In this document: positions 23,581-47,935 of the stretch, one piece after another
Layout of the letters: every line of letters begins with the position of its first letter
How positions within the stretch are numbered: the first letter of the stretch is position 1
Origin: Brachionus manjavacas
Taxonomy: Eukaryota > Rotifera > Eurotatoria > Ploima > Brachionidae
Assembly: GCA_019054805.1 (NCBI GenBank)
Contig: JAHQIY010000007.1
Location: forward strand, 2,981,501-3,045,500
Reading direction: 5' to 3'
DNA: 64,000 nt
The notes under the pieces: generated by a model
Databases searched by the model: none
The model's input: only the letters and a program-made list of their open reading frames with translations
Told to the model about the DNA's origin: nothing
Translations under genes and position numbers: made by a program

Positions 23581-24232
23581 TCAAGTTAAAGAATTTTCAA
23601 TGTGACTTAAAATTTTGTTGAGACTGACTTGACTAAAAAAACGCTTTAAAATAATATTTGCACAGGCCTTATTTGATTGATAAATTTTTATTATTTGTTT
23701 ATTTTGCGGTACTTTGCTAAAGCTCCTTGAGATTAGCAAAATAAAAAGGCAGAAAAAAAATGAAAAGAATAAAGTAAAAGTAAAAAAGTAAAAAAAAATG
23801 AAAATCAAATATTTTAATAATTGAAATGAAAGATGCTACATATTTAAGAATTAAACAGTTCAAGATAGAAAGAAGAAATTGAAAGACAGCAATTACACAT
23901 CAAAGTCGGATATTCAATATGACTTAAAACCCGATTTGTAGTCTATCACAAGTCTGAAAACCAATGAATAATAATGAGTCAATCCTGTAATATTTTCCTT
24001 ACTTAATTCAAAAAATTGATTCGAAACTGTTGGTTTTTTTAGTTTATTAAAGACTTAGTGATGTAAAATTTTAGAATAAACTAAGCTTTTATATGCAATT
24101 GGGATATTTGGTGACTTCTCAAAAAGAAAAATATCTTTTTTTGATTATTTATTTATGTTTATTCAAATTAAGTAAAATTTAAAAAAAATTATAATATTTA
24201 ACTAATTAATAATAAAATAAATATGATTAAGA

Positions 24233-27200
24233 TTATTTTCTAAAAAACGATGAAAATTTCGAAAATTCTTGATGAAAATCCTTGAAAGCACTATGAGCAT
24301 GTCCAATTTTACTTTGGATACTTTTTAAATTAATATTTCCACTATCATCTTGCAGTAATTTTCCTATATTTCCAACTTTTATTCCAACTTTTCCATCTTT
24401 TACTGAAAAAACACTTTTTCCAATATCATGTAATGCCTTCAAGTGTGTAATTATCTTTGGATTAATGAGACTCTTCCATTTTTTAAAAGTCATATCTTCC
24501 GGTATATCATCCAAATGATTGTCTTCTGGATCCAAGTCATCTTTCTTTTCATCGAGAGGTCTTTTATTACAAAATTTAACTATCTATTTCTTTTTAATTT
24601 TTTTAATGAAATTTTACCCTGAATCTATTTCTCTTTGAGTAAAAACTCTGATCATAAACTCACATTCTTTACCATAATCATATGTACTAGGTATTATTAA
24701 ATAATTCCCTGGCTCAACTGTGAATCTTTTGGTAACTTCTCTTGAATTTATATACGGACCAGATGCACCAATACGATCCAATTGTGTGGCATACAACATT
24801 GAATGGTTGTTCTTCACATCATCTACATCAACATCATCTTTGATTTTAAAAAGCTTAAATTGAATGAATTCTTCTTGAGACTCAGACGATTTTTCCAAAA
24901 AACGTCTCAAACGCGTATCTTTTTGCATCAGGGCTATAACAACTGTTGCCTTATTTTCATTGTCATCATTATCCACATCGTAAAGTTGAATCAAGAACTG
25001 AGGATTGGTCCAGAATTTGGCTTAAAAAAAAATTACAAAATCAGAATTAAATTGAGATATATTTCAGCAGTTTTAATAACCTGAATCACCATTTCCACAA
25101 CCACCAGCATTTTTTCCTCGCTGCCATTCAGATTGAAAGTATGTACAATGCCATTCCAAATTGTTGGTGCTGTCATTCTCTAATAATTGTTCGCTAAAAC
25201 TTTCTGGTGTCATATGGCAAATCTGAAGCGAATCCCAGTGTTCTAAAAAGTCTTCAAAGGACATCCAAAATTCACCATCAAAAACTTTCACTAAACCAGC
25301 ATCTAAACGATCACTTTCACTCAATGATTCCCATTCAGATGAACTAATTTTGTTGAATATTTTTTAATTTAATTTTCTAAATAAAAAATATTCGTACTTA
25401 TCAGACCAAGCACCATTCCATTCAACTTCATTTCCCCAAGGATTTCTTATTCTTTTAAAATGTAATTTAGTTTTAATTTTTAATTAATTTATTTTATTTC
25501 ACACCTTAAAAGCTTGTTTCCGTCATATTCTTCAACTTTAGTTAAGGTGTAAGCATCTTTAGACAAAGCAGTTAGTTGAATTAAAAAATTTAAAATAAAT
25601 TAAATGTTACGTCCTCTAACCAAACCATTTGATAATCTTGCTTCTCTAACGTTGGCATCAGCCTTTTAACAGCAAAAGATGACCAAAATATTTCAACAAT
25701 GTTGTCCCAATTGTGAAAATGAAAATATAGAATGTTTTTAATTTTCTTATGATGAAATGAATAATCAATTGAAATGTTTTTTTTAACTTTAAGAGTAATA
25801 AATCACAATAAAACAACATTTAAATCGAAAAAAATGCTGAAATAAAATTATCAAATTTCTTATTTGAAAAAAAATCAAATACTTAATCTTTAAATTCTAA
25901 TAATTAAAAATTTGGAATCCCAATCAAATTTAATTAAAAAAAAGAACTCCATTTAAGAGAAAAGATATGTGGCAAGATTTTTTTTATATTAATTCTGTTA
26001 AATTTTGTTAAATTGTGTTGTTTTCATTTTTCAATAAATAAAATTGGGAGGTATTTAATCGATCTCTAAAATTACTTAATCGATCACTAATATTTTTCTA
26101 TCTCTTATTTTACTAAATACCCTTAACTTAAATTTATTAATCTGTCTCCTAAATTAAATAAAACAGCAACTAATTTTACTTAAAGTATCTGTTATTTTTA
26201 TTTATTAAATTGATTTAAAAAAAAAGAATTATAAAAAATTTTAAATAATTTCAAATAAAATAATATCTTATAAGTTTTTTCTTGGTCTACCTCTACCTCT
26301 CTTTAGTGGAGCTTCTACTTTCTTACTTATATCACTGCTGGTTGATGCTTGCACTACTTTTTCAGCTTCCTTATCAATTGTTTTTTTGTTCTTTTTTGTT
26401 GGTATAACTGTTTCTTGTGGAATTTCTTCCTCTACTTCTGTTATCTTTCGCTTTAGAACTTTGATTGAGCTGACAACCCTCTCTTCTTTATCTGCCTCTG
26501 ATTGATACTCAAGCGCCTTTTTAGACTTACACGGTCTACCTCTTCTAGGTTTTTGTCCAATAACAACTTGTTTAGCTTCGATTGGTATTTTGACAAGTTT
26601 CATATTTGCAGCAAAGCCAACAAGATGCTTACAAATATGATCTTTAAAGAAGGAAGGACAGTAACAACTAGCTAGTCATATTTCTTGGTAAAGAGTTGAG
26701 TATCAATTGTTGGTTTTTTTTTGAAATTTTTGAAAAATTTTTGAATTTTTGAAATTTTGAAAAAAAATATCCACAAAAAAAAACTCTCACAGGAGATAAT
26801 TAAATTAAATCAAGAGATAATTTCAATTGTTCATTAATTAAGTTAAGAGCTATATTCATCATAATCATACTCATCTTCAGTAAATTTAGTGACAAAAAAA
26901 CTCAGGGTCATAAATATTAATTATTAGAGACAGTTAATTAATCAAATTAATCGAATAAATACTATTATAAATAGAAAAAATAAAATAATAAAATAACAAT
27001 CTTTTCCAATTTATGTCTTTTCAACTTTAATTTTTTTTAGCTTATTTACTCTATTTTGATTCTTTTTTTTTTTTTTATCTAATTTTATTTACTTTAATTT
27101 TATTTTTATTTTATTTTTTTTATTTTATTTTTAATTTATTCTGAAGGAGCTTTAGCTCGGTACAGAAAACAAATAAATAAAAAAATAAAATAATAATATA

Positions 27201-29016
27201 TTTTATTAAGTGATCGTTTAAGTAATGTAAGAGATCGATTAATAATACCCCAATAAAATTCATTCAATGTTAATAGCTTACGTTTATACTGCAGCCCATT
27301 ATTGAATTATTCTTAAAGCTTTTATGGATTACATTCCATAATTTTGATCTTTCGCCATAAGAAAGTTTTTTAAGATCAATCTGTTCTTGAACACCACCAG
27401 TCATGTCTACTAAAGCATCATATGTTTGACCGGCATCCAAGCTTTCATAAGATCCATAGAGCCTAAATCAGCTGTTATCTTTTAATTTCATTGAATATAA
27501 GAAATTTACTTTGCATAAGCTTTTTCCTTAATTATTAAAAAAATTAAAGAGTCGTTTTTTTAAATTTATAATTTATTACTAGAAGTGATGACCAATATTC
27601 ATTAGGCTCATCTCTGTTGGAGCTGAATACCAACTTTCCATCTGGCCAAAACGGAAGTCGGTCATCAATAACTACATCTACCCATTCGCCGTAAAGCCAA
27701 AATCTAAAATGAAATATTCCAGCGTAGCCTTCACCAAATCCCTGATCATCTGGAACCACTTTGGCAAATAGCTTTGGACACTGCATTATTCCAACGCATC
27801 CTGCTATAAACCAACAATTTCCTAAATAACCTTGATCCATGTCGCATCGACCAAATCCAGCGGAAACAAATTCAGCATCGGGATTTGCTTCTTTTGGTCT
27901 TAGCCACATAACTCCTTTAATTTTAAATTACTTTTTTTTTTAAGATTAAATTTATCATTATTTAAATTCTACCTTGTGGAGGCATTTGGGTAAAAAACAA
28001 TGATCTTCTATTGGCAGGAAACAAGGGATCCTCGAATAAATTGAATTCATTATGCTGGAATTTGAGTTCCTCAAATACTTGATCCTTAAAAGGTCTAATC
28101 ACATCCTTGAAAACATTTAAGAATTCAAAATTTCAAAATCAATATTCAATTAAATTTTATTTTTAGCAGTTATACTAAGTTATTTATTCTGGTCTTATCA
28201 GTCCTTAAATTTTTCATGGGTCTGTACAATTTTTGTGGATCATCACTAGTATCGAATGACCGATAAAGATTAAACTCAGGATTCTCAACCTTATAATAAA
28301 ATTAGCAAAAACATTAAATTACTTTTTTAAAAACTAACTACGTTTTGTTGCGAGTTTTTAGAACCAAAAATATCAGGTGGTCCACTGTAAAATTGAGTTG
28401 GCTGAAAGTTTGGGTTCGCAGAAATGTGAGCTGGTAGATAGCCTGAATTGGAAGGAGGCACGTTTGACGTTTGATATCCGGACTGATTTGAATAATTTGA
28501 TAAAGAATTGGGCTGAAATAAAGGAAATCCAGGCTCGTTAGGGTGGCCGAAATTATAAGTTGGAAAATTTGGATATGATTGTTGTCCTGAGTAAATTGCT
28601 TGTCTAGGAGGAAAACCTGAATTCCGGAAATAATCTTGGTTTTCAGGATAGCCTGATTGTGGCGAATTATCAGATTGATTTGAATAAATAGGATCATTGA
28701 ATCCAACCGAACCTGACTGAGAAGGAAACTAAACAAAATATATTCAAAAAGAAGTGGTTAAATTTGAAAGAAAATTACGTTTAGATAGGGTTGCTGAGAT
28801 TGGAAGCCTGGCTGACCGGATTGGTAAACTGGAAAGCCTGATTGTGGTGGATATTCAGATTGATTTGGATACATCGGAACATTGTTCGTTGGATCATTGA
28901 AGCCAATTGAACCCGACTAAAAAGTAAATTAAAATAATAAATTTAAAAGAGATAATTACTTTTGGATAGGGTGACTGAGATGAAAAGTTTCCTTGATTCG
29001 GATATTTTGGATACAT
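24233..29016 (-). CDS. Calpain copy A: calcium-dependent-type cysteine protease with Tyr/Pro/Gln-rich N-terminus, no penta-EF hand
   Basis: Intracellular papain-like protease of the calpain family. Exons in coding order: 29016-28960, 28916-28779, 28728-28342, 28289-28176, 28105-27973, 27914-27580, 27526-27510, 27462-27282, 25662-25611, 25556-25505, 25451-25398, 25343-25081, 25020-24618, 24560-24233. They sum to 2,514 nt: 837 codons and a stop, all phases consistent. Residues 1-194 are low-complexity Y/P/Q/N/G/S (MYPKYPNQ, SGSIGFNDP, QSGYPENQ). Residues about 250-515 form the protease core: LFEDPLFPANRRSLF, then Cys ~310 in QGYLGNCWF, His ~472 in VRGHAYTL and Asn ~492 in IRNPWGNEVEW, so the triad is complete. 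A C2-like domain III follows (~515-725, with [10 protein letters not shown] and [13 protein letters not shown]). The last ~110 residues are a unique Lys/Asp-rich tail. There is no EF-hand domain, so this is a non-classical calpain. The intron at 25663-27281 holds a Mutator-like insertion. Confidence 0.93.
26268..26675 (-). pseudogene. C-terminal remnant of a MULE transposase: SWIM zinc finger plus AT-hooks
   Basis: The open frame begins just after a TGA and ends at a TAA at 26268. It starts with CYCPSFFKDHICKH, which fits the SWIM pattern CxC-x8-CxH. This is followed by IPIEAKQVVIGQKPRRGRP and, at the end, KRGRGRPRKN; the two GRP cores are AT-hook-like. Animal MULE transposases typically end in a SWIM finger followed by a GQKxxRGRP-type tail. 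The catalytic DDE region is absent. The first ATG in the frame, at 26603, lies after the zinc finger, so an ATG-started product would contain only the basic AT-hook part. Confidence 0.75.
26990..27190 (+). mobile_element. Solo 3' tail of a LINE (or SINE sharing it), inside the MULE
   Basis: A T-rich lead-in ends in ctgaaggagctttagctcgg, then tacagaaaacaaataaataa. The same end recurs at 47,762-47,935 and at the 3' end of the Jockey-like LINE near 38,840-38,880. The core gagct-tt-agctc can form a short stem-loop next to the A-rich tail, as expected for a reverse-transcriptase recognition end. It lies within the MULE, so it inserted after the MULE arose or was carried by it. Confidence 0.65.
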
Positions 29017-34756: not shown

Positions 34757-37700
34757 TTAATGATTACAAAACACTTTGTATAATGACCTGACCGTCTGCG
34801 ATCTGAATAAGAGTCTCAAAAATTGATTGAACATTGTGAATCGCTTGACCATTCTGATTAGCTTGAAGCAAATTGATAATGGATCAATTAAACTTTTTAT
34901 AAAAACAGTAACCACAACAAAGAGAAATATCTGGCTAATTTCATTCAGTGAAACATACAATTTCGCATCTCTAATTGGACATAAGAAATCAATAAATGAC
35001 AAACAATGTACAATTGAAGACGCACAATGTCCGGAAGCTACCTTCAAATCCTTTGCCTTTAAATTCGTTGGTCTAAAACCAAATTTTTCCGAAAAAAACC
35101 TTAAAAACTATCAACTTGGTGGAGCAAACTCAGATTGATGGCAATCCTGTAAACGTCTTCCAAATCGGCGAGACTCGTTATCTCTCCTGCAAGCAAACTG
35201 GTCAAAGTTTTTGACTGCCCGAGCAAAAATGCCGTTTGTTCCAAGTGTAATTGAGCTTGTCACTCATCAGACAAGTGTTCAATGGCTAAAATAATTTCTC
35301 AAAAAATATATATAGATTTAGATGACGAAGATGAGGAAAAATTTGAAAACAGAATTATAACAGAAATTAAAGTAGATGATACTAATCAAAATGAAGCGCC
35401 AACAATTTCCTCTTTGATAGCTAATTTCAGTTTAAGTAAATATGATAACATGGCAGTCATAGGAAAATCTAACAAATTTTACTAACCTGCATTAAATGAC
35501 ACAAGCTTAAATTCAAGTGATCAAAGTGAAAATCATAACAAACAAGCAAAGAACGACGAGAGTGTTCGAGAAGTAATGAGTGGTTCCGGAGCAGAAAATT
35601 CTATTGAGTTAAACGACGTTGCTTAAATAAAAGATGGGAACAGCAAAGACTCTTGATTACTCTGCCCGTACCCAATGAAACAAATTTAAGCTCGTTTTAC
35701 TAACAAAAGTAAAAGCAGATCTGGTAGCAAAACCAAGCAATAACACTAAGAAGAGTTAGAAAAATGGAGCAGGAGAAACGTCGCGGAAGGAATGCACAAG
35801 AAGATAAATAAATATATTTCAAGAACAAAACCTCTTAATAAAACAAGGTTAGTAATTACACCTTGGAATTGTTCTCATCTTCCCAGCAAGATCAGCCTCT
35901 TAAGAATTTTTTCGACTCAGTTTTCCCCAGAAATAGTATTACTTGATGAAATAAAAATTGATTCGAGTGAATCAAAGGTATTCTTAGGTTTTAATAATTA
36001 AAGATCAATAAGTAAACCACGCAATAAGCATGGTGGAGGAGTAGCAATTTTAGAAAAGGAAGAATTAGAGTTTGTCCAAGACTTTTCGTATGATGAATTT
36101 TCTTTTGAATTACTTTGTATCAAAGTAAATCCAGGAATAGATCAATTATTCATTTTCAGTTTATAAAATCCACCTAATTAACTTCTAAATTTTAATATAT
36201 TTGAAAAGATAAATAGGAATTGTAAAAATTATGTTCTCGGGGGTGAGTTAAACGCCAAAACAAAATAGGATGCAAAAGGAGAAAACCAAAAAGGAACAAT
36301 TTTATAAAGCATTATTAACGAGCTTAATTTCACAGTAATCAATAATAAGTGTCCAACCTTTAACATATTCAATAGGGAATATTTATAAATTCTTGATTTA
36401 TTCTTAGTCTCAACTTCATTTATTGATAAATTGCTGATTAATGGTACTAAATAATCAAGATATGACCAGTGATCATTTTCTAATTGAGGCATCCATAAAT
36501 TTTGACAACTCAGTTATCCCTAAAGCACAACCAAAGAAGTTTAATTATAAAAAAGCAAATTGGTTATTATTCCGTGAGATCCTAAAAGGTCAAAACTCAG
36601 GATTAAATTTAGCATCAATTGACAAACTAAATGAAGAAATTACCCAAAAATTATTTTCTGCAGCTCATAAAAGCATTTCATACCAAACAAATAGAATTTT
36701 CAAAACAAGTCTCAAAGAATATTTCAAAAACGCAAAAAAATAAGAAGAATATTTCAAAAAACTCGTTGTCAAAATACTAAGAAAATATTTAACCAAATGC
36801 CTTCAGAGTTAAGAAACAGTTTAAGAAATCTTGGAATCAAAACTGTTCTGATTTTATTAAAAAATTGGGAAAAAATCCGCTTTCAAGTAAACCTTTCTGG
36901 AAAAAAATGAATAAATTTCGATCAAAATAAGGATCTGGATTAAAACCTACCTTAATCTCTAATAATAACGAAATTAGAACTGATGAAGAAAAGACTACCT
37001 TCTTTGGTGAATTTCTCCAAAAAACTTTTAGTCCGAATAATTATCTAACTAATCCCCAAATGAAAGAGAAATAATTGATTATAATCTTGAGTTTTTTAAT
37101 AAGGAAAATCAATGCAAATTTGACGAGCCTGTTAGCACTAAAGAGATTACATCAGCGATAAAAAGGTTAAAAGAGAAAGCATCTTCAGGACTAGACCAAA
37201 TTCATAACCTTATGTTAAAAAATGTACCTCAAAATATTCTAAAAGACATTATGTCTCTTTTTAGTTTAAGTCAAATAGGAAGTAAAATACCGAATACATG
37301 GAAATCTGCTAACATTACTATGATACCTAAAAAGTAAAATTTAACACAAGACCCGGCTAACTACCGACCAATCAGTATAACAACGTTTCATCTACTCAAG
37401 ATTATATAGTTATTTAGAACAAACTCATTACTAATTTAGGAGCAATCAGGTTTTAGAAAAAATCGATGAACCGCTGATAATCTTTTCTTCCTTATTTAAA
37501 AAATTGTAGAATCATTTAATCGAAAGAAGAAAGTTTGTTCCCTATTTTTTGATATCTCCAAAGCTTTCGATAGGGTTTGGCATGATGGTCTTATTTACAA
37601 ATTAATAAAAATGAACCTTCCCTCTTACCTAATTCATTGGATTAATTCATTTTTAGACTCAAGATCATTTAAAGTAAATGTAAATGGTCACATGAGAGAT

Positions 37701-38890
37701 GAATACCATATTACTGCAGGTGTTCCTCAAGGCTCGGTAATTAGTCCATTAATTTTTAGCATTTTTTTCAATGATATTCCTAAAAGAAAAAAAACAAATA
37801 GTGAATACTCTCTTCTTTTTACTGATGACTTCATTTTATATTTAAAAAAAAAAGGAAATCTAGAAAATAAGATAAACAAATACTTAGACGAAATAGAAAA
37901 ATGGTTCTTCAAGTGGAAGATGAAAATATCTGTTGAAAAGTCTTGTCACATTGTCTTTACTAAATATAATAAGGAAAATATTGACTTAAATTTAAAAATA
38001 TATGAAAATAAAATTGAGAGTTAAAAGGAAATCAAGTTTTTAGGTATAAAATTTGATTCAAAATAAACCTTTACCCCAATGGTTGATGAAATAAAACAGC
38101 GTTGTAGTTAACGGTTGAACTTAATAAAAATATTGTCAAACAAAAAATGGGGTCTTAATTATTACACACTAAGAAAACCTATATAAATCTTTAATCGGAT
38201 CTATAATTGATTACTCTTTTCCATGTCTGAATTCATTTTCGGAGACAAACATTAAAAAAATTCAAGTCTTACAAAACTCAGCAATTCGTTTTATACTTAA
38301 ACTAAAATATGATACTCCTTCCAATATCCTGAATCATGAGGCCTATAATAAACTTAAATTCTTAACTGTCTCGAATCGACTTTTTGAATCAAGCGAAAGA
38401 TATGTAGCGGGAGGACTGCGTCTGTTTCTGTTCCATTCGTTATAAAGCTGGTTGATGAATATAAAGCGGGTTTTGAATCAAGGTATGTTGAATACCCGAC
38501 TCCATTGTGTAATTGCTACCTTACTATTTCTTCTTTACTTCCTGAAACCTTAACTATGTAAACCTGAGTTTTTAAATTTCTCCTCCTACTTACTTAACTT
38601 AATAAAAAAAAAAAAAATTCTATTCCCAAGGATTTCTTATTGGTCTTATTCGGTCCTACTTTTAATCATTTCTTTTTTTTTGTCTTGCTTTCCTTAAGTT
38701 TCCATTTTGTAAACACGTATCGAATTTAACTCTCACAAATTTTTTTGATATTTTTATTTCTTGAATTTATTTTACCTTACTTTTTAGTTTTTAATTTTAA
38801 TTTTATTTATTTAACTTTATTTTTATTTTTTTATTTAATCTGAAGGAGCTTTAGCTCGATACAGATATACAAATAATAATAATATTTATT
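34757..38890 (+). mobile_element. Jockey-like LINE, ORF1 plus ORF2 (endonuclease and reverse transcriptase), inactive
   Basis: ORF1 covers about 34.8-35.75 kb, with a zinc-knuckle-like CPSKNAVCSKCN segment and an acidic/Lys-rich end. ORF2 starts near 35,792. The endonuclease part has TPWNCSHLPSKISLLR, GGGVAI and VLGGELNAKT. The reverse transcriptase part has SGLDQIHNLMLKNVP, PANYRPISI, LFFDISKAFDRVWHDGLI, GVPQGSVISPLIFSIFFNDI and a TDDF catalytic box. Many stops and frame changes make it non-functional. The 3' UTR ends in the ctgaaggagctttagctcg hairpin near 38,840 and an (aat)n tail, marking the insertion's 3' end. It faces the minus-strand relative at 32.6-33.6 kb head to head. Confidence 0.8.
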
Positions 38891-39331
38891 TAGGTTTAAT
38901 TTTTTATTATTATTTATTTATTTATTAGTTTTCGAGCTAGGGCTTTATCAATAATAGTTAGGATTTTATTAAAAATTGTTATGATTTACATCAAATAGTG
39001 ATTATTTTTTTCAAAAATATTGATTATTTTTAGTGATATTTTCAATAAAAAATAGTGATGATTTACATTAAAAATAGTGAATGTTTAAATACCACCCTTT
39101 TCTTGGACTAGAAGTAGCCAGTTATTATTGATTAACCCTCATTATTATCTAGGGTCATAAAAAAGATCATATCAGATCCTAACAGGTCCGGAATATAATT
39201 ATAAGAATTAGGTTTAGGTAAAAACGAGCAAAATTTTTCAAAATTTATTGTACTTCCTAACTAATTTAAAATTAACTAAAATCTGATAAATTAATAATTT
39301 CAAAAAAGATTCTGCATTATTAATACAAAGA
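38891..39331. other. Spacer between the Jockey-like LINE and calpain B
   Basis: About 440 bp of AT-rich sequence with loosely repeated atagtgat motifs (38,995-39,085). No coding similarity. Confidence 0.5.
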
Positions 39332-42300
39332 TTATTTTCTAAAAAATGATGAAAATTTCGAAAATTCTTGATGAAAATCCTTGAAAGCACTATGAGCATT
39401 TCCAATTGCACCTTGGATACTATTTAAATTTATATTTCCGCTATCGTCTTGTAGTAATTTTCCTATATTTCCAACATTAACTCCAACTTTTCCATCTTTT
39501 ACTGAAAAAACACTTTTTCCAATATCATGTAATGCCTTCAAGTGTGTAATTATCTTTGGATTAATGAGACTCTTCCATTGTTTAAAGGTCATATCTTCCG
39601 GTATATCATCCAAATGATTGTCTTCAGGATCCAAGTCATCTTTCTTTTCATCGAGAGGTCTTTTATTACAAAATTAAACTATCAATTTCTTTTTAATTTT
39701 TTTAATGAAATTTTACCCTGAATCTATTTCTCTTTGAGTAAAAACTCTGATCATAAACTCACATTCTTTACCATGATCATATGTACTAGGTATTATTAAA
39801 TAATTCCCTGGCTCAACTGTGAATCTTTTGGTAACTTCTCTTGAATTTATATACGGACCAGATGCACCAATACGATCCAATTGTGTGGCATACAACATTG
39901 AATGGTTGTTCTTCACATCATCTACATCAACATCATCTTTGATTTTAAAAGCTTAAATTGAATGAATTCTTCTTGAGACTCAGACGATTTTTCCAAAAAC
40001 GTCTCAAACGCGTATCTTTTTGCATCAGGGCTATAACAACTGTTGCCTTATTTTCATTGTCATCATTATCCACATCGTAAAGTTGAATCAAGAACTGAGG
40101 ATTGGTCCAGAATTTGGCTTAAAAAAAAATTACAAAATCAGAATTTAATTGAGATATATTTCAGCAGTTTTAATAACCTGAATCACCATTTCCACAACCA
40201 CCGGCATTTTTTCCTCGCTGCCACTCAGATTGAAAGTATGTACAATGCCATTCCAAATTGTTGGTTCTGTCATTCTCTAATAATTGTTCGCTAAAACTTT
40301 CTGGTGTCATATGGCAAATCTGAAGCGAATCCCAGTGTTCTAAAAAGTCTTCAAAGGACATCCAAAATTCACCATCAAAAACTTTCACTAAACCAGCATC
40401 TAAACGATCACTTTCACTCAATGATTCCCATTCAGAAGAACTAATTTTGTTGAATATTTTTTAATTTAATTTTCTAAATAAAAAATATTCGTACTTATCA
40501 GACCAAGCACCATTCCATTCAACTTCATTTCCCCAAGGATTTCTTATTCTTTTAAAATGTAATTTAGTTTTAATTTTTAATTAATTTATTTTATTTCACA
40601 CCTTAAAAGCTTGTTTCCGTCATATTCTTCAACTTTAGTTAAGGTGTAAGCATCTTTAGACAAAGCAGTTAGTTGAATTAAAAAATTTAAAATAAATTAA
40701 ATGTTACGTCCTCTAATCAAACCACTTGGTAATCTTGCTTCTCTAACGTTGGGGTCGGCCTTTTGAAAAGAAAGAACAATATTTTTTATATTTTTATACA
40801 AATCGTCATGATAGAAATTGAATTTTTTCAATTTCACTATAAAATGTTTGAATTGTAATTATTTCAATAACTCAATACTTTATCTATTTATTTTAAAAAT
40901 TAATCAAAAAACATAAAGCTATTCAATACTTGAATACCGATCAGGGTAAAAAGTGAATTAAAATAAAATTTTAACAACATTAAATATTTGTAAATAATAA
41001 CTTTCTCCTTAAATTAGTGAACGGGAATGTGTACATAATTTTCAAAGAAGTAATATTTTACCAGGGATCGGTTATCTATTCAAAATATACTATATATTTT
41101 TTTCTATTAATTGTCTTTTTCATTTTCTATTCACGTTCAATCTTTAAGCAAATTAAAAAATATCTAATAATTAATATTGGAAAAAGTTAAATTTGATCCA
41201 AAATAATTATATAATTTTCAAAATTTACCGATTCATGATCTTTTAATTGTAAATAGTAAAATAAATTAACCTAATAAAATGAGCATAAAATATTAAGAAT
41301 TAAATATACGTTAGCTTAAATTAGTAGAATCAAAAAATATTTGGAGCAAAGCATTTGTAAATAAATCGATTTCAGAATAGTTAACTGATTTAGTTTTTTT
41401 TAGTAATCTATTTTTTAATTTTCTCAAATATTTTATTTTATTACTTACATAATAAATTTTTAAGTAAAATAATTTTTTTTTGTAATTTTTTTAGGTCACT
41501 AAGAACCCATTGTTCTAATTTAAAATGAACGATGACTTTTGATGAATAAAAAAACAACTATTTAATAAAGAAAAGCTTTATAGAATATGAAAATAAAATG
41601 TAGCATAAATTTATTTATTTTCTTAAGCAAAACATTTGCAACTATAGTATAAAAAAGTTGCAGTTCAGTTTTGCTATTATTTTTTCTCTCAGTAATGAAT
41701 GGCCATCAAAATTTGTGTTTAGGCCTGGGTCAGGAAAAAAAAGACGCCTAGCAATTTTCGTCAAAATTTTGTGAACTAACCCGATGTTGTTCAGACACAG
41801 GTTGATGTTTTGAAACCACAAATAAATGTGATTGAGCCTCAGATGGATCTTGTTGAGTCACAGATTGATGTTGTGGACCGCCTAATTATTTTTTATTCTT
41901 GAATGTATAAAAGTATTCTAAAAGATAAGTTTTTATTTCACAGTTCAAATTTAATTGACTTTTTATTCTTTAATAATTTGTTTTTTATACTAAAATAAAT
42001 AAAATTTTGTTTGTACTAAAAAGAATTTTTTTTTCTATATAAAAATTTTTTTATAGCTTTTTCCCATTTAAAAGCGATACAAGCGTTAAAATGTGACTAA
42101 AAAGTCACACACAATAAATTGTGAATTGACTTTTTAGTATGTGGAAATAATTCAATAATCTACATACTACTCTATATTTTTATTTCTACTGCTAAGCCTT
42201 CAATGGGTTGAAGATTATTTCTATATGCTATTAATTAAAGCAAATAACTTTGCCAAAAAACTAAAGTGTTATAAAGAAAAATAAAAAAAATTAGTTTGAA

Positions 42301-43726
42301 AAGTGAAACATACAATCTATTGTTGTATAGTCATGTGATATGATGTATTTAAACATCGTGGTTTATCTTATTTTGTTGTTCATTCGTGTTATATTATTTT
42401 ATAAATGTATATATTATTTAATAAACTATATTTAGCTCTATGACCATTCAACTAGATTTTAAAAAAAAGTGAATTAATTTTTTTTGATTCAACAGATTAA
42501 AGCTTGTTAAATCAAAAGGCAATTTTGGAATATCGGGTATTTTTTGGTGACGAGCTAATAAATTACTTCTGGAAATCACAGATTTCATTGCTAGATTACT
42601 TTCTTGACGAATGCATTACGGTATTTTATAAAAAAAGCCAAATAATCAAATTTAATTAAAAAAAAGAACTCCATTTAAGAGAATATTAATTCTGTTAAAT
42701 TTTGTTAAATTGTGTTGTTTTCATTTTTCAATAAATAAAATTCATTCAATGTTAATTGCTTACGTTTATACTGCAGCCCATTATTGAATTATTCTTAAAG
42801 CTTTTATGGATTACATTCCATAATTTTGATCTTTCGCCATAAGAAAGTTTTTTAAGATCAATCTGTTCTTGAACACCACCAGTCATGTCTACTAAAGCAT
42901 CATACGTTTGACCAGCATCCAAGCTTTCATAAGATCCATAGAGCCTAAAATCAGCTGTTATCTTTTAATTTCATTGAATATAAGAAATTTACTTTGCATA
43001 AGCTTTTTCCTTAATTATTAAAAAAATTAAAGAGTTGTTTTTTTAAATTTATAATTTATTACTAGAAGTGATGACCAATATTCATTAGGCTCATCTCTGT
43101 TGGAGCTGAACACCAACTTTCCATCTGGCCAAAACGGAAGTCGGTCATCAATAACTACATCTACCCATTCGCCGTAAAGCCAAAATCTAAAATGAAATAT
43201 TCCAGCGTAGCCTTCACCAAATCCCTGATCATCTGGAACCACTTTGGCAAATAGCTTTGGACACTGCATTATTCCAACGCATCCTGCTATAAACCAACAA
43301 TTTCCTAAATAACCTTGATCCATGTCGCATCGACCAAATCCAGCGGAAACAAATTCAGCTTCGGGATTTGCTTCTTTTGGTCTTAGCCACATAACTCCTT
43401 TAATTTTAAATTACTTTTTTTTTTAAGATTAAATTTATCATTATTTAAATTCTACCTTGTGGAGGCATTTGGGTAAAATACAATGAACTACTATCGGCAT
43501 CAAAGAGAGGATCTTCAAATAAGTTGGATTCATCGTGCTGGAATTTGAGTTCGTCAAACACTTGATCCTTAAAAGGTCTAATCACACCCTTTAAAATATT
43601 TTATGATTAAATTTTTTAATCAATAATTTTATTAATTTTTGTTTTATAACGATTTAAAATAAGCATAAAAAAATTACTCATTTGCATTAGATTATAGAAA
43701 TAATTACAAACCTTAGAAAAACTCAT
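39332..43726 (-). CDS. Calpain copy B: near-duplicate of copy A with two 1-nt gaps, possible pseudogene
   Basis: Exons in coding order: 43726-43712 (MSFSK, tentative), 43588-43456, 43397-43063, 43009-42993, 42944-42764, 40759-40708, 40653-40602, 40548-40495, 40440-40178, 40117-39717, 39659-39332. Exon lengths match copy A one for one except the domain III exon, which is 401 nt against 403. It lacks one A near 39,947-39,950 and one near 39,995-39,999, both in A runs, and this destroys the frame in the C2-like domain. The catalytic Cys (QGYLGNCWF), His (codon split across the intron after 40708) and Asn (IRNPWGNEVEW) are kept. Most exons and short introns are almost identical to copy A, but the first shared exon is clearly diverged (LFEDPLFDADSSSLY against LFEDPLFPANRRSLF). 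The long low-complexity N-terminal exons of A have no counterpart. Homopolymer assembly errors could explain the gaps. Confidence 0.8.
41783..41880 (+). repeat. Short 21-nt in-frame repeat in the long intron of calpain B
   Basis: About 4.7 imperfect 21-nt units. Read on the plus strand they give the heptads DVVQTQV, DVLKPQI, NVIEPQM, DLVESQI and DVVDR, then run to a stop. Regular aliphatic positions make a short coiled-coil-like pattern. The segment lies in the ~2 kb calpain B intron (40760-42763), which is unlike the corresponding intron of copy A over most of its length. It may be a fragment of another gene or element carried in. Confidence 0.55.
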
Positions 43727-44238: not shown

Positions 44239-47051
44239 CTATGGCTTTTCACCGTTGTTTGCAGCTTTGAAAAAATTATCCCAACTACTAAATATTGTAT
44301 CTGTGTCATCTAGCTCGAAAAACGATTCTTCTTCTGTTAATTCCTCTTCTTTATTCTGTTCCAAAGAGCTAGCTTCAATATTTTCTTCAGTGAAAATTCT
44401 CAACATGAACTCACAATCTCGGTTTGGATCATATGTGCTCGGTATTATAAGATAATTTCCAGGTTCGATTCGGAATCGCTTGGTTACTTCTCTTGAATTT
44501 ATGTACGGGCCAGATGCACCGACTTTTTCTAGCTGATTAGAGTATAATTTGAGACCTGTTGTTTTTGATTCATCGATTGGCACATGATCTTTTATCTAAA
44601 CACAAATAATTAAAATTATAATTTAAAAATAAACTACCTTAAAGAGTTTGAATTGAATAAACTCTTCAGCTGAATCACAATTTTCTTTTATTCGTTTTAT
44701 ACGACAGTCTTTCTGCATCAAAGCAATAACCACAGTTGCCAAATTTTCATTATCGTCATGGTCAACATCGGAAACTTGAATCAAAAATTGAGGATTTGTC
44801 CAGAATTTTGCTTGGTTATATTGTCCACATCCACCTGCTGTTCTCCCTGTTGCCCATTCCGAGTGGTAAATTGTGCATTTCCATGACATGTCACTATCCA
44901 TTGCCAATTTTCGCCATGACATTGCTCCTATCTTTTTAAAAGAAATTGAATTAACTTTTAATTTTATCATTTGAATCAAACGTCGTTGGCTTTTTTGATC
45001 TCTTCACTGAATGTATCCACTGAAAGGTGGCATATTTGAACTGTATGCCAATTTTTCAAAAAATCTTCATAACTCATCCTTAAAATAGAAATTTTCCAAT
45101 AATGAATAGAGCAATTTTTTATGTGTTGTTGATTTTTGTACCAAAATTCGCCATCATGATCCTGAATCAATCCGAGTTCTTCTCTTGTGTCATCATCGAA
45201 TATTCTCCATTCTCTAGAGCTTTGAAAAGATTCGTTGAACTAAAATCAAATTAATTTTTTTAAATAAAATTTACTTATCTGACCAGGCACCTTTCCATTC
45301 AACTTCATTACCCCTAAATACCTAATTTTTTTCAACCAAAAAAAAATTTTTCAGTAAAATATTTACCAAGGATTTCGAATTCTAAAAGATTAAAAATGAT
45401 TATAAGAATTGAATGTACATTCTTTCATGCTTTTAAAAATTTTGATATAATCTTTAAAGCTTCATTGGTAAAAGCATTTTTGGACTCGTTTTTGAATTGC
45501 AAAAGTTTTTTTTTTTTGAACAAAAGTTTAATTTAAACTAGGCAATTTATTGTAAAAAATTGGAAAAAAACAAAAAAAATTGAAATAAAAAATAATGTAA
45601 GCAAAAAAATTTTTAACAGTAAATTAAATTGAAACCCATAGTCTTTTCTTAGAATTACCTAATTTGATAAAAATCTGTCAATCCCTAAAAATAATTATTT
45701 TCCTCAAAAAAATTCTAAATATTAAATTTTTAATTATTAAATGATATTTCATGAAAAAAATTACTTTAAATGGCATTTTTTTTCAGGATATTAAAAAAAA
45801 TTTTAAGTTTTTAAGTTTGAAAAAGTTGCTCGTCTTTATTTTTGTCCACCGCTGTATACCCTTTTTCAAATATAAGCTTGACATTTTTCAATTTTAATTA
45901 TTTAGATTATATCCAAAATTTTGACTTACATATTAGAATCTACTGCATAGAATTTAGTTTACCTTAAAAGCCTAAAAATATCATCACCAGTTTCAACAGT
46001 TACTAATTTAGTAATAGTATATGCATGACCTCGGACCAAACCATTAGATAACCTTGCTTCTCTTACACTTGAATCAGCCTCAAAAATATTAATTCGATTA
46101 ATATCCGAATTTAGTTTTATGCTTAGATAAAGCTTACAATTATACTACAACCCATAATAGAATTCCTCATATAAGCTTGATAAAGTATTGTCCATAAATT
46201 GGTTGATGAATCGAGCTTAGCTAAATCAAAAGACTCCTCAAGTCCTCCTTAATATTTAGTAATTTACTTCGAGTTTAAAACTTTGAAAAATTTTACCTGA
46301 CATGTCTATTAAAGCATCAGTCTTTTTAAAATTAATTTAAAAAATTCATTTAAATTCATTCTATTAGTTACCGTTTGACCAGCTTCTAGAGCTTCATAGC
46401 ACCCATTTAGCTTTGCATAGGCTTTTTCCTTATAAAAAAAAATTAATTTAGGTGCCAAATTTAGGCTTGAAAGATACCAGCAAAGCAGTCCAATATTCAT
46501 TTGGTTGTTGCTTATTATTAGCATAGACCAATTCTCCTGTAGCCCAAAATGGCAATCGATCATCAATCACTACATCAACCCATTGACCGTATAGCCAGAA
46601 CCTAAAGTGAAATATTCCTGCATAATTTTCAGTAAAGCTTTGCTCGGCAGGCACAACTTTTGCAAATAACTTTTCAGATTGTAGCATACCAACAACACCT
46701 TTATTTTTAATTTTTTTTAAATATGCCAATATTCATCTTTAAATAAGCATACCTGCAATGAACCAGCAGTTTCCAATAGAACCCTGGTCCATGTCACATC
46801 TTTTGAAGCCATCAACTACAAATTCCGCATCATCTCTTACTTCCTAAAATCAAACCTATTGATTATTAACTTATTTTTCCAATCAAAAATTCAACTTTTG
46901 GGCGTTTCCAGATTATGCCCGGCGGTGGACGCCTTGAATAATAAAGAGATTGATTAGTAGCCGGAAAGTAAGGATCCTCAAAAAGATTGTCTTCGTCGTA
47001 TTCAGTCAAAAGTTCTTCGAATACTTGTCCCTTAAAAGGAATAATCTCCAT
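44239..47051 (-). CDS. Calpain copy C: intact non-classical calpain, 551 codons
   Basis: Exons in coding order: 47051-46896, 46843-46753, 46698-46478, 46428-46372, 46321-46297, 46247-46138, 46078-45963, 45381-45367, 45313-45275, 45219-45142, 45078-44982, 44931-44638, 44595-44239. They sum to 1,656 nt with consistent phases. The protein starts [15 protein letters not shown] and goes straight into [20 protein letters not shown]. The triad is Cys ~78 (QGSIGNCWF), His ~238 (VRGHAYTI) and Asn ~262 (IRNPWGNEVEW). A C2-like domain III has [20 protein letters not shown] and [13 protein letters not shown]. The tail is acidic ([15 protein letters not shown]), with no EF-hands. Intron positions differ from A and B: one is missing beside the active-site His, and there are extra ones around TDALIDMS and inside EFW-MSYEDF. 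It lies about 500 bp upstream of copy B in the same direction. The 3' splice site at 45219 was chosen because it alone keeps the frame and restores NSREW (NSSEW in copy A). Confidence 0.92.
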
Positions 47052-47761
47052 TTTGTAAAATCTAGGGTTAAAAATTTTGTAATAAGCCTAATTTTCGCAA
47101 AACTCAAATGCAACTGGCTGTGTAGATAACAAGTTTTTCAAAAGCTTATAGATTTAGATAATATATTCCATCATGCATAAATCATAATTTTTTATAAGCA
47201 TAAAATTCAATTGAGTCTGACTTGTTATTGATGAAATTTTAATTTAAATTTTCAATCCTAAATTGCGCACAAAAATAATAATAATTTGCTTTTCACCTTT
47301 AAAAAAAGTTTCACTTTTAAAGAGAGTATAAAAAAAAATTTTTTTATTAATTTTATTTAAATTATGAATGAAAAATTTGAATTTTCCTGAAATTAATTTA
47401 TTCATTTAAACGCATTAAATGAGAAAACTTAATGATTCTTTTTGTTATCTACAAGTTAGTTCAATTAATTAATTTACAAACTGTCGAAAATTTTCATTTA
47501 ATTAGAAAAATGTCATTGCCGTTGTCAAAAACCAGATCTTGGAAAAAATAAATTAATAATGGTTTAAAGAATATGAATGATATTCTAAAATTCAATTTTA
47601 TTCACCATCAAAAAATCACCTGTGAATTATTTTATATTCGTTTGCTTAGATCTAAGTTACTAATCGAATGCATTTGGATAATCACCTACAACAAAACACT
47701 TTATTATATTATGCCTTTGATAAATTCCTTGTTATAAAAATATTTATCTAAATATTAACTC
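47052..47761. other. Region upstream of calpain C, nothing recognised
   Basis: AT-rich sequence of 0.7 kb with no coding similarity. It should hold the calpain C promoter. Confidence 0.5.
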
Positions 47762-47935
47762 CAATGTATGTCTTTTGAACTTTCTTTTAATTTTTTTTTA
47801 ACTTATTTACTTTATTTAAATTTTTTTGAATCTTTTTTTTATTAACTCTATTTTAATTTTATTTTTTTTTTGATTTATTCTGAAGGAGCTCTAGCTCGGT
47901 ACAGAAAACAAATAAATAAGTAAATAAAATAAATA
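47762..47935 (+). mobile_element. Solo LINE/SINE 3' tail with hairpin
   Basis: It begins tgtatgtcttttgaac, continues through a T-rich stretch and ends ctgaaggagctctagctcgg, then tacagaaaacaaataaataa. The order and sequence match the copy at 26,990-27,190 from the tgtctttt start to the tail, and the 3' end of the Jockey-like LINE at 38.84 kb. It is either a severely 5'-truncated LINE or a SINE that uses the same tail. Confidence 0.65.

Follow-up and report, generated by a model that had tools for sequence, protein, structure and literature searches.

A Mutator-like element in a calpain intron of Brachionus manjavacas, delimited by the empty site of the paralogous gene

Taken as a whole, the locus described here is almost certainly best explained by cut-and-paste insertion of an internally deleted, non-autonomous Mutator-like element (MULE) into an intron of calpain A, one of a pair of calpain genes, A and B, of which B has the same site unfilled. 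The window, by which we mean the whole stretch of 64,000 nucleotides that was analyzed, corresponds to positions 2981501–3045500 of contig C7 in a 114-Mb genome of 61 contigs, and its G+C content is 25–31% in 8-kb steps. The name calpain, assigned in an earlier sequence-only reading of the window, is borne out by a minus-strand frame at 27544–27927 that matches PF00648 in Pfam (E 2.2e-37). Related-empty-site analysis, the comparison of a filled site with its empty counterpart, is an established proof of transposon ends, and here the filled and the empty site both fall within one window. The term RESites occurs in PMC2213677 and PMC4486113.

The sequence-only reading had placed a Mutator-like insertion with identical flanks and ∼50-bp inverted ends at 26037–27260, and had reported that calpain B carries one copy of the flanking 9 bp and no element; all of this stands, including its contention that the two sites prove the element's ends directly. 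The span 26037–27260 consists, to the base, of duplication, element and duplication. With a slash marking the junction, the left side reads ...CAATAAATAAAATT/GGGAGGTATTTAATCGATC, so that the element starts GGGAGGTATTTAATCGATC, and the right side reads ...GATCGATTAATAATACCCC/AATAAAATTCATTC, the element's last bases being GATCGATTAATAATACCCC. The two flanks match at 9/9 positions, and the match extends no further on either side. The inverted ends are 85% identical across ∼50 bp, and each contains the motif TTAATCGATC twice, 21 bp apart and at 9/10 or better; these motifs are likely binding sites for the transposase. Only 21 bp of intron separate the right duplication from the 5′ splice junction of calpain A (Table 1).

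Calpain B reads ...CAATAAATAAAATTCATTC, with one AATAAAATT and nothing inserted between flanks that match those of A. On the left, once a 25-bp stretch confined to A is set aside, 99 of 99 aligned bases are identical; on the right, B resumes at the same base as A. The breakpoint is therefore exact, and the 9-bp match sits on it. The intron flank matches A and B and nowhere else in the genome (9 of 9 candidates scored). We also sought, and ruled out, a third gene with this intron, whether filled or empty; the other matches of the flank are short and 69–91% alike. In what is probably an animal genome, the locus fixes the boundary of a MULE family exactly and with an internal control. The stretch confined to A lies at 25961–25985, its near edge 60 bp from the element.

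Table 1. Coordinates of the element, its flanks and the empty site, as positions in the window
Feature	Position	Strand	Basis or remark
Element-bearing calpain A intron	25663..27281	-	Splice dinucleotides and reading frames
Left target-duplication copy, AATAAAATT	26037..26045	.	Sequence, A/B alignment and other copies
Non-autonomous MULE, nested LINE fragment included	26046..27251	.	1206 bp
Left terminal inverted repeat; two TTAATCGATC subrepeats, spacing 21 bp	26046..26092	+	Inner limit approximate
135-codon open frame, C-terminal transposase remnant	26268..26675	-	Frames, motifs, related copy L024
Region that in L030 separates the N-terminal transposase piece from the right end	26765..26990	-	C9 matches, alignment
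Nested LINE 3′-end fragment with TCTGAAGGAGCTTTAGCTCGGTACAG and AAATA-type tail	26990..27185	+	Approximate limits
Right terminal inverted repeat; two subrepeats, spacing 21 bp, one 9/10 to TTAATCGATC	27204..27251	-	Inner limit approximate
Right target-duplication copy	27252..27260	.	Sequence, A/B alignment and other copies
Empty site in calpain B, single AATAAAATT	42734..42742	.	Sequence and A/B alignment

The same boundaries recur across the family. A genome search with 26037–27260 gave at least 102 matches, a lower bound because 40 of 2355 first-look candidates were scored. Forty places were examined, the window and 39 others that were fetched, and both ends are kept in 17 of them (the window and 16 of the 39); these we call complete copies. 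For the other 23 of the 39, the fetched stretch does not contain both ends, and these places were left out of the counts. All 17 complete copies are flanked by matches of 8/9 or better. The flanks agree at 9/9 in 13 copies, of which 11 do so as first placed (window, L012, L013, L015, L016, L017, L027, L030, L034, L038 and L044) and two, L011 and L018, once one boundary is moved by 1 nt; the remaining four (L009, L010, L020 and L037) agree at 8/9. With the base composition of the window, the chance of a match of at least 8/9 is 4.3e-4 per copy, a figure that assumes fixed boundaries and does not cover the two 1-nt shifts.

The ends themselves are alike, except that in five of the 17 copies (L015, L016, L018, L034 and L038) one 21-bp subrepeat is missing from the left end. 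Each of the five is still flanked by a 9/9 duplication, and their first bases are GGGAGG in three, AGGAGG in one and, in L018, a variant with two base differences. A left-end match was present at 38 places, from which L040 was dropped, its best match being the right end; among the remaining 37, two motifs are found in 29 and one motif in eight.

We took as the marks of a MULE a target duplication of 8–11 bp (typically 9), terminal inverted repeats and a MULE DDE domain in fuller relatives. The first two are present in the window copy, and the third is found in L024, a longer related copy whose catalytic domain matches PF10551 (E 1.3e-6; 29.2 bits, cut-off 27.6). Together with the flanks of the 17 complete copies, this makes “Mutator-like” the right label. 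Genome-wide, PF10551 has at least 150 matches, all of them above the cut-off (150 scored of 394 candidates), and there are many MULEs in this genome. The element in the window belongs to a known class, of which it is an unremarkable example.

What coding capacity it retains is C terminal. The 135-codon frame carries CYCPSFFKDHICKH and GRGRPRK; we take the former, a CxC..CxH pattern, to be a SWIM-like finger and the latter to be an AT-hook-like tail. Pfam places this frame in no family above the cut-off and gives it no SWIM match at E 0.1, its sole match at that threshold being DUF3715 (E 0.065, below the cut-off). The C-terminal frame of L024 comes closer to the SWIM family PF04434 (E 0.0044), at 17.0 bits against a curated cut-off of 19.6. 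A SWIM finger at the C terminus is frequent in MULEs, though not all of them have one. Two further pieces, one of 207 residues from L023, in which the finger has lost a cysteine, and one of 102 residues from L029, have no Pfam match at E 0.1, and the N-terminal, finger-like C..C..HxH stretch of the longer copy has none even at E 10, FLYWCH included.

The middle of the transposase is absent from the window copy, and both ends of the element are common to fuller relatives. One of these is L030, in which both ends are present and flanked by a 9/9 duplication; its own middle is deleted, but between the C-terminal and right-end parts it shows a 93% match to N-terminal transposase sequence (C9:2742948–2743172). 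The window copy keeps the C-terminal and 5′-side parts and is missing the catalytic and N-terminal parts. Because of the coding remains in L024 and L030, it is best interpreted as derived by deletion. Among the copies read, there is no complete, intact autonomous copy of the exact family.

Part of the 1206 bp is not original to the MULE: the segment at about 26990–27185 is a LINE 3′ end. The same 3′ end occurs twice more in the window, at 47760–47932 and at 38749–38885, the latter downstream of a reverse-transcriptase frame at 37500–38024 (PF00078, E 2.8e-28), and it is widely repeated in the genome (1890 first-look candidates, 40 scored). A LINE end occupies one and the same position next to the right inverted repeat in five complete copies (window, L009, L037, L038 and L044) out of the 17; 11 are without any such piece, and L016 has a different insert there. 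The pieces of the window, L009 and L044 are 91–93% alike, and those of L037 and L038 are 73–84% like the others, so a single insertion is hardly their source. Their sequences suggest more than one independent LINE insertion at one spot, and a favored A+T-rich landing site beside the right inverted repeat is likely. L009, the highest-scoring other copy among the 40 scored, has a LINE piece 91.5% alike and a different, 8/9 duplication of its own; because it shares the piece and differs in the duplication, a composite of the window type most likely had already moved as a unit.

These features agree with those of MULEs known from other animals. MULE duplications are given as 8–11 bp in PMC6446971, which also describes fingers of the SWIM and/or FLYWCH type, both for Phantom and for a flatworm group, the flatworm elements having ends of 42–46 bp and 9-bp duplications. 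Like animal MULEs, the Phantom/Muta group among them, our family has 9-bp duplications, inverted ends of tens of base pairs and, in relatives, a MULE domain and a putative SWIM-like finger; unlike them, the window copy has no catalytic domain, and Pfam does not match the N-terminal C..C..HxH stretch of the longer copy to FLYWCH. The non-autonomous Muta1 elements of Aedes aegypti are similarly short derivatives with 8–9 bp duplications (PMC5225508). According to the same paper, the short Muta1 derivatives are mobilized in trans and excise precisely. Our search for literature on MULEs of rotifers or Brachionus found no paper on this element family, which does not prove that none exists. A rotifer spliced-leader sequence has no exact match in the genome; the calpain itself looks like an animal one.

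When the insertion happened is harder to say, and this depends on how A and B have exchanged sequence. Within aligned blocks, 3 of 521 intron sites differ between A and B. The tract 27261–27972 has 6 mismatches in 712 sites, against 19 in 137 for the adjoining exon, 27973–28109 (Fisher p = 2.2e-11), and the intron directly beside that exon, 27915–27972, has no mismatch in 58. It is because the intron is better conserved than the exon next to it that gene conversion is indicated. At the other end, the exon at 24233–24583 has 17 differences in 351 sites. The longest identical run between A and B is 370 bp; when the mismatches were shuffled 2000 times, a run of that length arose once. From these patterns, the flanks of A and B look to have been homogenized by gene conversion. 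Sharp steps in A/B identity are seen at 27261–28163 and 24229–24600, and they look like the ends of conversion tracts.

The acceptor-side halves of the intron (25668–25921 in A, 40765–42643 in B) tell a different story. Their Smith-Waterman score of 34 is matched by 76 of 200 shuffles; a homologous but diverged half is thereby ruled out, the similarity being no higher than that of shuffled sequence. Since these halves are unrelated, the two copies may have a greater age than the tract would imply, and since the pair is patchy and bears the marks of homogenization, the identity of the flanks is no measure of the age of the A/B duplication. The half in B holds a different repeat of ∼550 bp (around 41522–42069), with many relatives in the genome that are 73–92% alike (40 of 70 candidates scored); the half in A has no other match in the genome at the same search sensitivity.

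In the history that we propose, a transposase from a fuller relative would have bound the subrepeats in the element's ends, cut the element from a donor in which the LINE fragment was already present and inserted it at a 9-bp staggered break in the calpain A intron, whereupon gap filling would have produced the two copies of AATAAAATT. The least certain step, which we still regard as reasonably probable, is that insertion came after the last homogenization of A and B; B would then keep its unfilled site. Such a late insertion into A is the simplest history.

Substitution counts do not separate this history from its rivals. Among the 17 complete copies, 11 of 953 sites are private to the window copy; with two of these at the LINE junction dropped and two more found to be shared with L019 and L021, 7 of ∼951 are left. 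This is more than the 3/521 intron differences, which accrue over two lineages, would suggest, but not significantly so (Fisher p = 0.21), and because of that value the histories are left unseparated and dating by mutation count yields no date. An insertion that predates the last homogenization is compatible with the counts, though we consider a later one likelier. The sequence-only reading had offered two alternatives: an insertion later than the A/B duplication, or conversion of B from an empty allele. Late insertion and conversion both keep their place among the histories weighed here, but that pair is incomplete: the flanks carry marks of homogenization, and precise excision offers a third route. 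For the animal MULE Muta1 in a yeast assay, PMC5225508 gives precise excision in ∼90% of examined events when 8- or 9-bp duplications flanked the element, with one duplication copy left behind. Flanks that look homogenized and precise MULE excision together mean that the single copy in B is no proof that B was never filled.

The rival that fares best, itself rather unlikely, is an older insertion in A whose flanks were later converted on both sides, or whose empty A allele overwrote B. The homogenized tract beside the divergent exon, the low intron divergence and the unrelated acceptor-side halves, which allow the copies to predate the tract, all suit it; the element's unique substitutions are, however, too few to show an age above that of the flanks, and some of them were possibly inherited from an unsampled source copy. 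Less likely again is a history in which the element predates the last homogenization, or the duplication, was carried by B as well, and was then lost from B by precise excision together with one duplication copy. Muta1 is a precedent for such a loss, and the window copy has at least as many substitutions as the flank divergence would require, but an extra event is required, and no footprint in B speaks for excision, which when precise leaves none by nature. That A and B are two alleles of a heterozygous insertion misplaced in tandem by the assembler is very hard to credit: parts of them are nearly identical, yet they share one 6.4-Mb contig at a distance of ∼16 kb, with other sequence between them, a LINE included, their intron halves are unrelated and an exon is divergent, and a third, more distant calpain copy lies beside them.

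Late insertion into A thus stays our preferred history. A tentative alternative is that the pair may preserve the trace of an old MULE insertion that either outlasted gene conversion or disappeared in its course, by one of two routes: conversion that homogenized both flanks and skipped the 1.2 kb of heterology, or precise germline excision from B. If that were true, the locus would be a natural record, in an animal, of exchange between tandem genes around a transposon. A more general caution follows from the locus: an empty paralogous site with one duplication copy gives no date where paralogs convert each other and the transposon can excise precisely. Beyond annotation of this genome, the effect of these observations is small.

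Several features nearby may be recorded. The third calpain copy of the array lies at 44239–46673 and is 65–82% alike in short blocks. Calpain B (39328–43645) has two 1-bp gaps relative to A in homopolymers of one coding exon, near 39946–39996, corresponding to positions 24848 and 24897 of A, and a 135-codon frame seen in A is not listed among the calpain B frames; calpain B may be a pseudogene or may carry assembly errors. Elsewhere in the genome, near a long MULE copy, L089 (C38:307150–310600) is a tandem array with a unit of ∼337 bp and repeated open frames.
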